A stretch of 64,000 nt of DNA from Methanobrevibacter millerae (GTDB lineage: Archaea > Methanobacteriota > Methanobacteria > Methanobacteriales > Methanobacteriaceae), in contig NZ_CP011266.1 of NCBI RefSeq assembly GCF_001477655.1, positions 914,001 to 978,000 on the forward strand. Reading direction: 5' to 3'. The translations under genes and the position numbers were made by a program. A model generated the notes under the pieces. The model was not told the DNA's origin. It saw nothing but the letters and a program-made list of their open reading frames with translations, and ran no database searches. Positions 33,038-49,950 of this stretch are shown here, piece by piece (within the stretch, counting starts at the first letter, position 1; the number at the start of each line of letters is the position of its first letter).

Positions 33038-33063
33038 TTAGGTTAACCAAAACTTTTTTATAC
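33038..33063 (+). promoter_or_regulatory. DtxR-type box and TATA element in front of the DtxR-family gene
   Basis: TTAGGT-TA-ACCAAA at 33038-33051 is a near-palindrome (one mismatch), followed 3 bp later by TTTTTATAC at about 33055-33063. The core resembles the TTAGGTTA half-site of bacterial DtxR/IdeR operators. Its position just upstream of the TATA box of a DtxR-family gene suggests autoregulation. The same arrangement recurs at 48756. Confidence 0.6.
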
Positions 33064-33107: not shown

Positions 33108-33812
33108 ATGGCTGATGATAAAATAAGTGAAAACATTGAAGAATACTTGGAAGTTCTTTATAAGAATGGAAGCAATAAAGAACAAGTATCAACCACTACT
33201 CTTTCTAAGGAATTGGGGATTGCTCCAGGTAGTGTTACCCAAATGCTTAAAAAATTAGAGACTTTGGGTTATATAAACTATACTCCATATAGGGGAGCTT
33301 CTTTAACTGATGATGGAATGAAAATTGCTCAAAAAATTACAAGAAAACATAGGATTTTAGAGAAGTTTTTATTAGATGTCTTAAAAGTCAAAGAAGAAAA
33401 TATCCATGATCAGGCTTGTGAAATGGAACATGCATTATCCGATGAAGCTGAAAGGGCGTTGTGTACAATGTTGCATCATCCTGACCTATGTCCTGACGAC
33501 AACATAATTCCTGCATGTGATTTGGATTTTGACAGTTGTCAGCAATGTTTTTCTGAAAAAGACTTTGATAATGTAATCAATAGGAAATTTAATTTACTTT
33601 CAATTTCAGAATTAAATCCGGATACTTCAGGTGTAATTTCATTTATTCGTGGAAATAGTGAATTATTAGATTCTATTTCTGAAGCCGGAATTGCTGTTGG
33701 TAATAATATTCACTATTATAATAATGATGGTATTGAATATTCTGTAACAATTGAAAATGAAGATTATTCTCTTTCATCAGAAATGGCAAATAATATTTTT
33801 ATTAGGGTATAA
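33108..33812 (+). CDS. DtxR/MntR-family metal-dependent regulator
   Basis: 234 residues. Winged helix at 1-75 (SVTQMLKKLETLGYINYTPYRGASLT), dimerisation and metal domain to about 145 (HRILEKFLLDVL, CEMEHALSDEAERAL, HHPDLCPDD), then a cysteine-bearing linker (CDLDFDSCQQC) and a C-terminal FeoA/SH3-like domain. The family represses or activates iron or manganese genes when metal is bound. The Shine-Dalgarno AGGTGGAT precedes ATG 33108. The extra cysteines in the linker are unusual and might add a redox or zinc site. Confidence 0.88.
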   Translation: MADDKISENIEEYLEVLYKNGSNKEQVSTTTLSKELGIAPGSVTQMLKKLETLGYINYTPYRGASLTDDGMKIAQKITRKHRILEKFLLDVLKVKEENIHDQACEMEHALSDEAERALCTMLHHPDLCPDDNIIPACDLDFDSCQQCFSEKDFDNVINRKFNLLSISELNPDTSGVISFIRGNSELLDSISEAGIAVGNNIHYYNNDGIEYSVTIENEDYSLSSEMANNIFIRV

Positions 33813-47300: not shown

Positions 47301-47314
47301 AAGTTGTGATTCTT

Positions 47315-48736
47315 GTGGATAATATAAGAAACGGTAGATTTAAAACAGGAATGACTGATGAAGCGGCTGAATACACTTCTTCTTTTGATGCCGATAAGTT
47401 GCTTTTTGAAGCGGACATTAAAACTAATTTTGCACATACTTCAATGTTAAAACATGAAGGAATTATTGATTCTGATATTGCAGATAATATTTTATGTGCT
47501 CTAGATTCTCTTAAAGAAGAAGGCTTTGATGCTTTAGTCTTTGATCCATCAGTTGAAGACGTTCACATGGCTATTGAAAATTATGTGACTTCCAAAATCG
47601 GACCTCAGGCAGGTTTCATGCATACTGCAAAATCACGTAATGACCAGGTTGCAACTGATATCCGTTTAGTCTTAAGGGAAAGGATTATCGGTATACAAAT
47701 TGGAATCTTGGAATTTATGGAAGGAATAGTTGAAATGGCTGGAGAGCATTTGAATGATGTATTTATAGGATTCACTCATTTGCAGCATGCTCAACCAATC
47801 ACTATTGCACATCATTTGATGGCACATGTTCAGGCTTTAAAAAGAGATTATGAACGTCTGGAAGATACTTACAAACGTGTTAATTTAAATCCGTTAGGTT
47901 CTGCTGCTATGGCAACTACCAGTTTTCCAATCAATCGAGAATTGACCACTAAATTATTGGGTTTTGATTCTTATTTGGAAAATTCAATGGACGGAGTTTC
48001 AGCAAGGGATTTTGTTGCTGAGACTGTTTTCGACCTAACAGCTTTATGTACCACATTATCCAAAATCTGTGAAGAACTAATTCTTTGGAGTACATATGAA
48101 TTTGGAGTCATTGATATGGCTGATGAATATTCATCAACATCATCAATCATGCCTCAAAAGAAAAATCCTGATGTTGCAGAGTTGGCTCGTGGAAAATCCA
48201 CAATTGTCAACGGTGAACTTGTTACTATTTTAACTATATTAAAAGCTATTCCATACACTTACAATCGTGATTTGCAGGAAATCACTCCTCATTTATGGAA
48301 TGCTTTAAAAGTAACTGAAGATACCTTGTCAATTGTTACCCGTATGTTGCTTTCTGTTAAGTTCAACACCGAAAGATGTGCTGAGCTAGCAGGCCGTAAT
48401 TTTGCAACTGCAACTGACCTGGCAGATATTATGGTTCGTGAAAAGCAAGTTCCGTTCAGAACAGCTCATAAAATCGTTGGCCGTATTGTAAATGAAGCAA
48501 CTTCAAACAATATGGTTGAAGAAGACATTACTTCTGATTTTATTGATGATATTGCTGTCGATTTAGGATTTGATAAGTTATACTTGGATGATGAGTTAAT
48601 ACAAAAAGCTTTAAACCCGACAGAAAATGTTAAGATTAGGCGTGTAGTCGGTGGGCCGGCTCCAGAAATGGTTGATTTAGCTCGTGATAACATTAAAGTA
48701 TTTTTAAATGAAGAATTTGAGAAAAAAGGAATTTAA
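47315..48736 (+). CDS. argH: Argininosuccinate lyase
   Basis: About 473 residues. The fumarase/ASL signature is [14 protein letters not shown] near residue 280; [12 protein letters not shown] and [11 protein letters not shown] are also present. It splits argininosuccinate into arginine and fumarate. A GTG at 47306 is in frame, but GTGAT there is a good Shine-Dalgarno for GTG 47315, which I prefer; the difference is three residues. It is separated from the ribosomal block by a terminator and has its own terminator after the stop. Confidence 0.95.
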
Positions 48737-48757
48737 TTTCCTTTAACTTATTTTTTT
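48725..48757 (+). terminator. argH terminator
   Basis: A 7-bp stem, AAAGGAA (48725-48731) with TTCCTTT (48738-48744), has a 6-nt loop and is followed by ACTTA and seven T residues (48751-48757). It shows that transcription at 48.8 kb is a separate unit. Confidence 0.65.
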
Positions 48758-48780
48758 AGGTTTACCTAATAATTTATATA
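48756..48780 (+). promoter_or_regulatory. Perfect DtxR-type palindrome and TATA box of an orphan promoter
   Basis: TTAGGT-TT-ACCTAA at 48756-48769 is a perfect palindrome in its 6-bp arms. TTTATATA follows at 48773-48780, 3 bp later. The box differs from that before the DtxR-family gene (33038-33051) at two positions and has the same spacing to its TATA box. The predicted transcription start is near 48803. No protein gene follows in this direction. Confidence 0.6.
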
Positions 48781-48802
48781 TTTCTTTTTATAAAATTAGT
48801 AT

Positions 48803-48915
48803 TGTTATAAGAAATTTATAACATGGTTATCTGGATAATATTCGGTTGTTTATGGAATACATTGAATAAATTCATGTAAGCTCAGCTTCCATTGATGGCT
48901 GAATATTTCTTTTTA
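48803..48915 (+). ncRNA. Candidate small non-coding RNA under DtxR-type control
   Basis: The promoter at 48756-48780 predicts an RNA starting near 48803. It would begin with a 7-bp hairpin, GTTATAA (48804-48810), loop GAAAT, TTATAAC (48816-48822). It would end with a 5-bp hairpin, TCAGC (48882-48886) with GCTGA (48898-48902), and a T-rich stretch, giving about 110 nt. The only frame inside is 18 codons (48823-48879, MVIWIIFGCLWNTLNKFM) without a Shine-Dalgarno. No tRNA or known RNA family is recognised. The target is unknown. Confidence 0.4.
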
Positions 48916-48930
48916 ATCATTATTTTGATT

Positions 48931-49950
48931 TTACTTTGTTTTATAGAAGCTCCATATCAGGTCTAGGGCTTCACCTGGTTCAAGGGCTGATGACCTTGTC
49001 TCTCTAAGTATTCTTTGGATGGAATATTTTTTTATGTGGGGATATTTTCTGTGAACTTCATAAAGAAGGGGACATCCGAATCCTTTAAACTCCTTTAAAT
49101 CATAGTTTCTGATTAAGGATTTTATCTCTTGCTTGCCTGTTGATAAACTTGCTGGAAGGTTTAGTCTATATAATGAATCGTCCTGTTTATTTATGCATTG
49201 TGTACCTGTTGCAAGCATATCTCCAAAGATAAGTATTGGAATTTCATTATCTTTTGCATATTGCTTTGCAATTTCACCAGTATTTTTTGAGCATCTTCCA
49301 CAGGGGTGAAGTTTTCCCGTCAATGACTCTGTGATTACATCCTGATAATTTGCCTTAAGATATTCATGCGGGACATTTAGTTTTTCTGTAATCATTTTTA
49401 TATTCTGTTTATACTGGTTTGGAAGGATTATTGTTCCAGGATCTATTGTGATGGCTATAGGATTAAAACCTAATGCTTTGGCTAAAATCAGTGAAAAGCT
49501 GCTGTCAACACCCCCTGAAAGGGCAACTACTGCCTCGGTATTTTTTGATTCATTAAATTCATTATTTTTCAGATAATTCTCATAATTGAAACTGTAGATA
49601 TTGTCTAGTTTATCTTTTATTATTTTTTTCAGGTTATCAATACCCACTAAATTCAAATCCAGATTTTCAACTGTCCTTTTGGATAGTCTTAATTTATATT
49701 CCTTTTGCAGGAAATCTCCATAGCTTTCAACGTGAATGCTTTCAAGATTAAGTTTTTCTCTGAGCTTTCCGACAACCCATCCCCCTTTTCCGATTATGGC
49801 GGACTTATCTGGCCGGTCTTCAGTTATAATCCATAGCTCATTTGTATCCTTGTTGAAGTAGGTCTCTTCGATATATATGCTGACCTCATCATGGCCAATT
49901 TCACGTCTTATGGAGTTGACTTCATCTAGAATGAACTTTTCATCGTACAC
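48931..49950 (-). CDS. PP-loop ATPase with N-terminal KH-like motif (possible tRNA thiolase)
   Basis: 339 residues. The N-terminal part has a KH-type GxxG motif, IIGKGGWVVGKLREKL (about 53-68), suggesting RNA binding. The PP-loop VVALSGGVDSSFSL follows near 140-155, binding ATP for adenylation. A cysteine pair in HPCGRCSKNTGEIA and a later one, GFGCPLLYE, recall tRNA-sulfur enzymes. No exact substrate can be read from the sequence. It may draw sulfur from the desulfurase at 1748. ATG is at 49948-49950, preceded by AGGTGAA. Confidence 0.75.
   Translation of the reverse strand: MYDEKFILDEVNSIRREIGHDEVSIYIEETYFNKDTNELWIITEDRPDKSAIIGKGGWVVGKLREKLNLESIHVESYGDFLQKEYKLRLSKRTVENLDLNLVGIDNLKKIIKDKLDNIYSFNYENYLKNNEFNESKNTEAVVALSGGVDSSFSLILAKALGFNPIAITIDPGTIILPNQYKQNIKMITEKLNVPHEYLKANYQDVITESLTGKLHPCGRCSKNTGEIAKQYAKDNEIPILIFGDMLATGTQCINKQDDSLYRLNLPASLSTGKQEIKSLIRNYDLKEFKGFGCPLLYEVHRKYPHIKKYSIQRILRETRSSALEPGEALDLIWSFYKTK

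Follow-up and report, generated by a model that had tools for sequence, protein, structure and literature searches.

Small RNAs that respond to iron are familiar from bacteria, where RyhB, PrrF, FsrA and IsrR are controlled by Fur, and trans-acting small RNAs also occur in methanogens, among them sRNA154, which is linked to nitrogen. To our knowledge, no iron-responsive small RNA has been described in archaea. The described system closest in logic to the RNA presented here is MrsI (ncRv11846) of Mycobacterium tuberculosis, which carries an IdeR box and is induced by iron starvation (PMC8628891). IsrR is an iron-repressed RNA (PMC9410917). The classical IdeR/DtxR site of Actinobacteria is a 19-bp palindrome for two dimers, and a 14-bp consensus, TTAGGNNNNCCTAA, has been proposed from crystal structures for a single IdeR dimer (PMC8464063).

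We analysed a 64,000-nt window of Methanobrevibacter millerae DNA (GCF_001477655.1, NZ_CP011266.1, positions 914,001–978,000, forward strand), to which all window coordinates below refer. Positions 48756–48918 probably constitute the gene of a DtxR-repressed, iron-starvation-induced, trans-acting small RNA. The original prediction of a DtxR-controlled sRNA at this site is supported on sequence grounds, by strong covariation, the absence of a conserved reading frame and a perfect box in every member. The sRNA shares with MrsI a length of roughly 100 nt, a DtxR/IdeR box in the promoter, an intergenic location and a structured fold (PMC8628891). MrsI, however, is bacterial, differs in sequence and structure, and has experimentally shown induction and targets (hypF and bfrA), whereas the Methanobrevibacter sRNA is a prediction from sequence. 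With the RNAs of other bacteria, RyhB, PrrF, FsrA and IsrR, it shares the predicted logic of silencing by a metal-loaded repressor under ample iron; unlike these Fur-controlled RNAs, it has a DtxR-type box and a TATA promoter, and belongs to an archaeon. The Methanosarcina mazei RNAs sRNA162 (PMC3510493) and sRNA154 (PMC11549558) are likewise trans-acting methanogen small RNAs, but come from another archaeal order, answer to other cues and lack a metal box.

As far as we know, the RNA would represent a new family and the first iron-responsive regulatory RNA to be recognised in archaea; a literature search, which covered few subscription journals, found no iron-responsive small RNA of archaea and nothing linking archaea to DtxR-controlled RNA. 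The RNA is compact and occurs in many Methanobrevibacter from ruminants and from the gut. With a defined operator, one cognate repressor, a covariance model and strains that have naturally lost it, it renders the question of RNA-based iron management in archaea directly testable. The host methanogens matter for enteric methane and rely heavily on iron-sulphur enzymes.

A DtxR-type operator beside a TATA box

The element begins on the forward strand with the operator TTAGGTTTACCTAA (48756..48769), a perfect match to TTAGGNNNNCCTAA. It equals the published one-dimer consensus of Actinobacteria at all 14 bp but, in contrast to the operators known there, stands beside an archaeal TATA box and precedes a noncoding RNA (PMC8464063). 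The TATA box, TTTATATA (48773..48780, +), follows after 3 bp (TAA). Both this spacing and the resemblance of the box to DtxR/IdeR half-sites had been noted before, and both hold.

The comparison covered 67 Methanobrevibacter genomes and 84 genomes from 18 other genera of the order, 151 in total; the window's own genome, a single contig of 2.54 Mb, is referred to as G000. The first relatives came from a DNA search, the entire element being alignable in eight genomes. A covariance model, R1, was trained on the RNA part alone, with the promoter left out, and found the RNA in 44 of the 67 genus genomes at E values up to 1, as a single copy in each. A second model, built on 40 members and run across the order with stricter large-search filters, found it in 48 of the 151 genomes, all inside the genus, and did not find it in the 84 genomes of the 18 other genera. 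Together the two models place the RNA in 49 of 67 genus genomes, always in single copy, and a search for the box-plus-core pattern added one further genome (G032) to give 50 carriers; named carriers include M. millerae SIG13 and M. thaueri SIG19.

A perfect TTAGGNNNNCCTAA lies just upstream of the RNA in all 49 members recovered by the promoter-free models, with a TATA box (A[AC]TTTATATA or TTTAAATA) no more than a few bp further on in every one. Since the models were blind to the box, box and RNA confirm each other independently.

Structure and coding potential of the RNA

The R1 match spans 48803..48918 (+) and is supported by folding and by the covariance models. It starts with a 5′ hairpin, TGTTATAA-GAAAT-TTATAACA (48803..48823, +), which had been predicted together with a second hairpin at the 3′ end of a transcript of about 110 nt. 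The 5′ hairpin stands, and the putative transcript would measure about 115 nt, both of its ends being placed by inference. The 3′ element, originally read as a terminator hairpin, is instead one long bulged stem (48825..48918, +), with covariation in helices 1–3, that runs into T-rich DNA. Within it lie an apical hairpin, TACAT-TGAATAAATTC-ATGTA (48858..48878, +), which corresponds to helix 3 and recurs in individual folds, and the bulge GCTCAGC (48880..48886, +), a candidate interaction site that is invariant in 44/44 members listed.

The window's RNA folds with −28.1 kcal/mol (z = −3.4), and one of 200 shuffles folded equally well. In the 40-member alignment both sides had changed in 32 of 38 modelled pairs, so that the covariation sought across the genus genomes proved strong; the covariation score was 0.38, against 0.15 for shuffled alignments and about 0.10 or less when the alignment was slid. 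Pairing is possible in 87.5% of cells of this alignment, which was itself fitted to the model. Because of that fitting, members were also folded singly. All 44 were more stable than their dinucleotide shuffles, every z lying below −2 (mean −4.9), and 43 showed the closing stem, the apical hairpin and an unpaired CUCA bulge, with CUCA unpaired in all 44. The sequences of the long stem and the 5′ hairpin vary between relatives while their pairing is maintained. Many members carry a longer, C-rich apical loop, GUUCCUCAAUGAAUUC, which is absent from the clade of G000. By these measures, 48803–48918 is a conserved structured RNA and no chance fold. Rfam release 15 had no family reaching its gathering score, and a permissive threshold gave only chance-level matches.

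The window also holds an 18-codon frame, MVIWIIFGCLWNTLNKFM, with its ATG at 48823, which would fit a small peptide gene. This frame is not kept in relatives, however, and substitutions track base pairing rather than codons. The original prediction would have been undone by a conserved coding frame; we found no frame across the core that is open in all 44 members, the three frames being open in 10/44, 7/44 and 29/44. We rejected a peptide-coding role, which we consider the least credible of the readings weighed here.

A probable autonomous unit between argH and a convergent gene

The RNA lies between argH (47306..48736, +), present at every locus where the contig reaches that far, and a convergent PP-loop gene (48931..49950, −) whose profile matches, of QueC/TtuA type, are weak. 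The same two genes flank all 44 loci checked, with argH beyond the contig in one. The product of the convergent gene resembles a protein in which a KH-type motif (GKGG) stands ahead of a PP-loop domain bearing SGGVDSS and a CGRC motif, features that make a tRNA-thiolation type enzyme likely. A separate terminator for argH had been proposed: the GGAATTTAATTTCC repeat and T-run on which this was based are real and are kept in relatives, and termination there is a plausible reading of them.

The RNA is directly 3′ of argH in nearly all genomes, an arrangement also expected if the stretch were an argH 3′ UTR or processed tail, or a transcript antisense to the convergent gene, with a merely box-like sequence in front. 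We regard this as scarcely tenable. A separate box and TATA precede the RNA in every member. In two genomes, G053 (L074) and G054 (L084), the orientation of the sRNA is reversed with respect to both flanking genes, an arrangement that no 3′ UTR could adopt and that implies a promoter of its own. In G027 the stretch from box to RNA is gone, although argH keeps its tail. As to antisense action, the end of the convergent gene is about 200 bp away in many genomes. We rejected both forms of this explanation. The gap between the inverted sRNA and argH is about 1.2 kb in G053 and 0.25 kb in G054.

Box and RNA are also lost together: at 15 argH loci lacking the RNA, both the box and the core are missing. 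This joint loss, with the inversion in two members, argues for an autonomous unit, and we predict that it is transcribed independently, under the operator of an iron repressor. The G022 locus resembles a decayed remnant. On an argH tree the distribution requires five changes, consistent with a single gain plus about four losses; the M. smithii-like genomes, which lack the RNA, fall outside. As these losses occurred mostly without loss of dtxR, the sRNA is not essential. In RNA-free genomes (L268, L267, L265 and others), the interval from argH to the PP-loop gene holds a small gene on the minus strand whose product is a CxxC zinc-ribbon-like protein.

DtxR and its candidate boxes

The window includes the gene for the sole DtxR-family protein of G000 (33108..33812, +; PF01325, PF02742 and FeoA matches). 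Across the genus, exactly one DtxR-family match was obtained in 60 of the 67 genomes and none in the other seven, of which several are incomplete assemblies. Upstream of dtxR is the box TTAGGTTAACCAAA (33038..33051, +), 2 bp before TTTTTTATA. The near-identical box and TATA originally noted at this gene are therefore present, with one mismatch and a spacing of 2 bp where the sRNA has 3 bp, and dtxR is probably autoregulated through TTAGGTTAACCAAA.

Exact TTAGGTNNACCTAA occurs only five times in the 2.54-Mb genome. Two copies are upstream of feoB, one is near a rubrerythrin gene, one is at the sRNA and one precedes a DUF6110-like gene and a P-type ATPase; in total, three boxes precede feoB-feoA. 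We strongly infer that the sRNA would be repressed by iron-loaded DtxR. When iron is present, the single DtxR would bind TTAGGNNNNCCTAA beside the TATA box and keep the transcription machinery from assembling; under iron scarcity, it would release the site, and the RNA of about 115 nt would be made alongside the feo uptake genes.

The DtxR family includes manganese sensors, and the metal sensed could be manganese instead of iron. An MntR model gives one full-length profile match to the window's DtxR, scoring well under the cut-off of that model, and a P-type ATPase gene lies behind one of the boxes. For the metal-binding domain, however, IdeR gives the best alignment (2e-13; MntR, 4e-4), and the protein retains the His-Glu-His and Cys-Glu-His positions, the metal ligands of IdeR/DtxR, including the cysteine. 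The placement of the box before feoB-feoA likewise speaks for iron, and with a single DtxR-family protein in G000 there is little room for another regulator. We judge it very improbable that the RNA is real and its box serves a different regulator or a manganese response.

Other boxes were seen elsewhere in the sample. A one-mismatch box with a TATA box is present in several genomes ahead of an O-acetylhomoserine sulfhydrylase-like gene (L012, L013, L015, L018, L019, L020) and in G025 ahead of an ammonium-transporter-like gene (L010), from which the DtxR regulon may extend to sulphur and nitrogen metabolism. In G060 (L009) and G059 (L011), a paired-box promoter lies ahead of a small Cys-rich ORF, ending in FFFGCNCH in G060, that may newly be counted to the iron regulon. 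Two intergenic sites of G000 (L040 and L049; G000:C1:723874 and 1445027) have a similar arrangement of TTAGTCATACCTAA and, some 72 bp further on, TTAGG-CCTAA, and share a CATTGCTTTTA stretch, a layout that perhaps marks a repeated metal-regulated or mobile element.

Mode of action and candidate targets

The RNA would present a 5′ hairpin and a long stem exposing the invariant GCUCAGC bulge, joined in most relatives by the C-rich apical loop GUUCCUCAAUGAAUUC. Exposure of the bulge and the loop suggests that they act by pairing, most likely with ribosome-binding sites or other RNA targets. Such pairing would adjust translation, yielding an iron-sparing or uptake-limiting response.

Searched for in five genomes, AGCTGAGC, which complements the core exactly over 8 nt, gave no shared site at a start codon; it occurred inside or antisense to genes, and in tRNA genes. 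A relaxed search with AGAAGCTGAGC, allowing one mismatch, gave too many sites to resolve among the matches listed. Energies of full-length duplexes were uninformative, 136 of 1000 shuffles being equally good.

The lack of a shared mRNA target for the exact core complement in the five genomes would also be expected of a DtxR-controlled structured RNA that binds a protein through the invariant bulge, as a decoy or scaffold, and pairs with no mRNA. Such a role is the main rival to pairing, and one we hold to be unlikely. The bulge is invariant while the stems vary freely, but a pairing seed would equally give an invariant element of 7 nt. The invariant octamer GCTCAGCT (48880–48887) recurs, in the same genomes, in the D-arm part of tRNA-Thr, in the 5′ part of the gene (L232, ~1502), and in other tRNA-like stretches. 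As GCUCAGCU is also found in tRNA D-arms, one candidate for the partner is a protein that binds or modifies tRNA. The resemblance to tRNA is short, however, and was noticed after the fact. A specific form of this idea, a new archaeal RNA class in which an iron-starvation decoy would mimic the tRNA D-arm with its GCUCAGC bulge and sequester such a protein, strikes us as very improbable; if true, it would mean that translation is retuned under iron shortage.

Also set against protein binding, and in keeping with our preferred reading of a pairing RNA, is the match of the second conserved loop to a feoB ribosome-binding site in G044. A search of 16 genomes for exact complements of the apical loop gave a single meaningful site, that of G044 feoB1, whose ribosome-binding site, AATTCATTGAGGAAC, is perfectly complementary over 15 nt to the loop of G044's own sRNA. 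The next best complementarity was 12 nt among 768 start regions, a set that includes both copies of the G044 feoB1 locus and is partly enriched for the 12-mer, so that the comparison of 15 with 12 is conservative. The match is limited to one genome and one paralogue, and the main feoB copies of G044, G059, G060 and G000 have a different ribosome-binding site. We consider it a lead and no general target. Since the sRNA and feoB1 would be derepressed together, the likely sense of such pairing is a brake on FeoB, which is speculation. At the feoB1 locus of G044 (L341:10402-14677), two feoB genes lie in tandem, both with DtxR boxes of their own in front; feoB1 is the first, extra copy, with two boxes upstream, and G060 retains a stretch with two boxes that is very similar but lacks the extra feoB.
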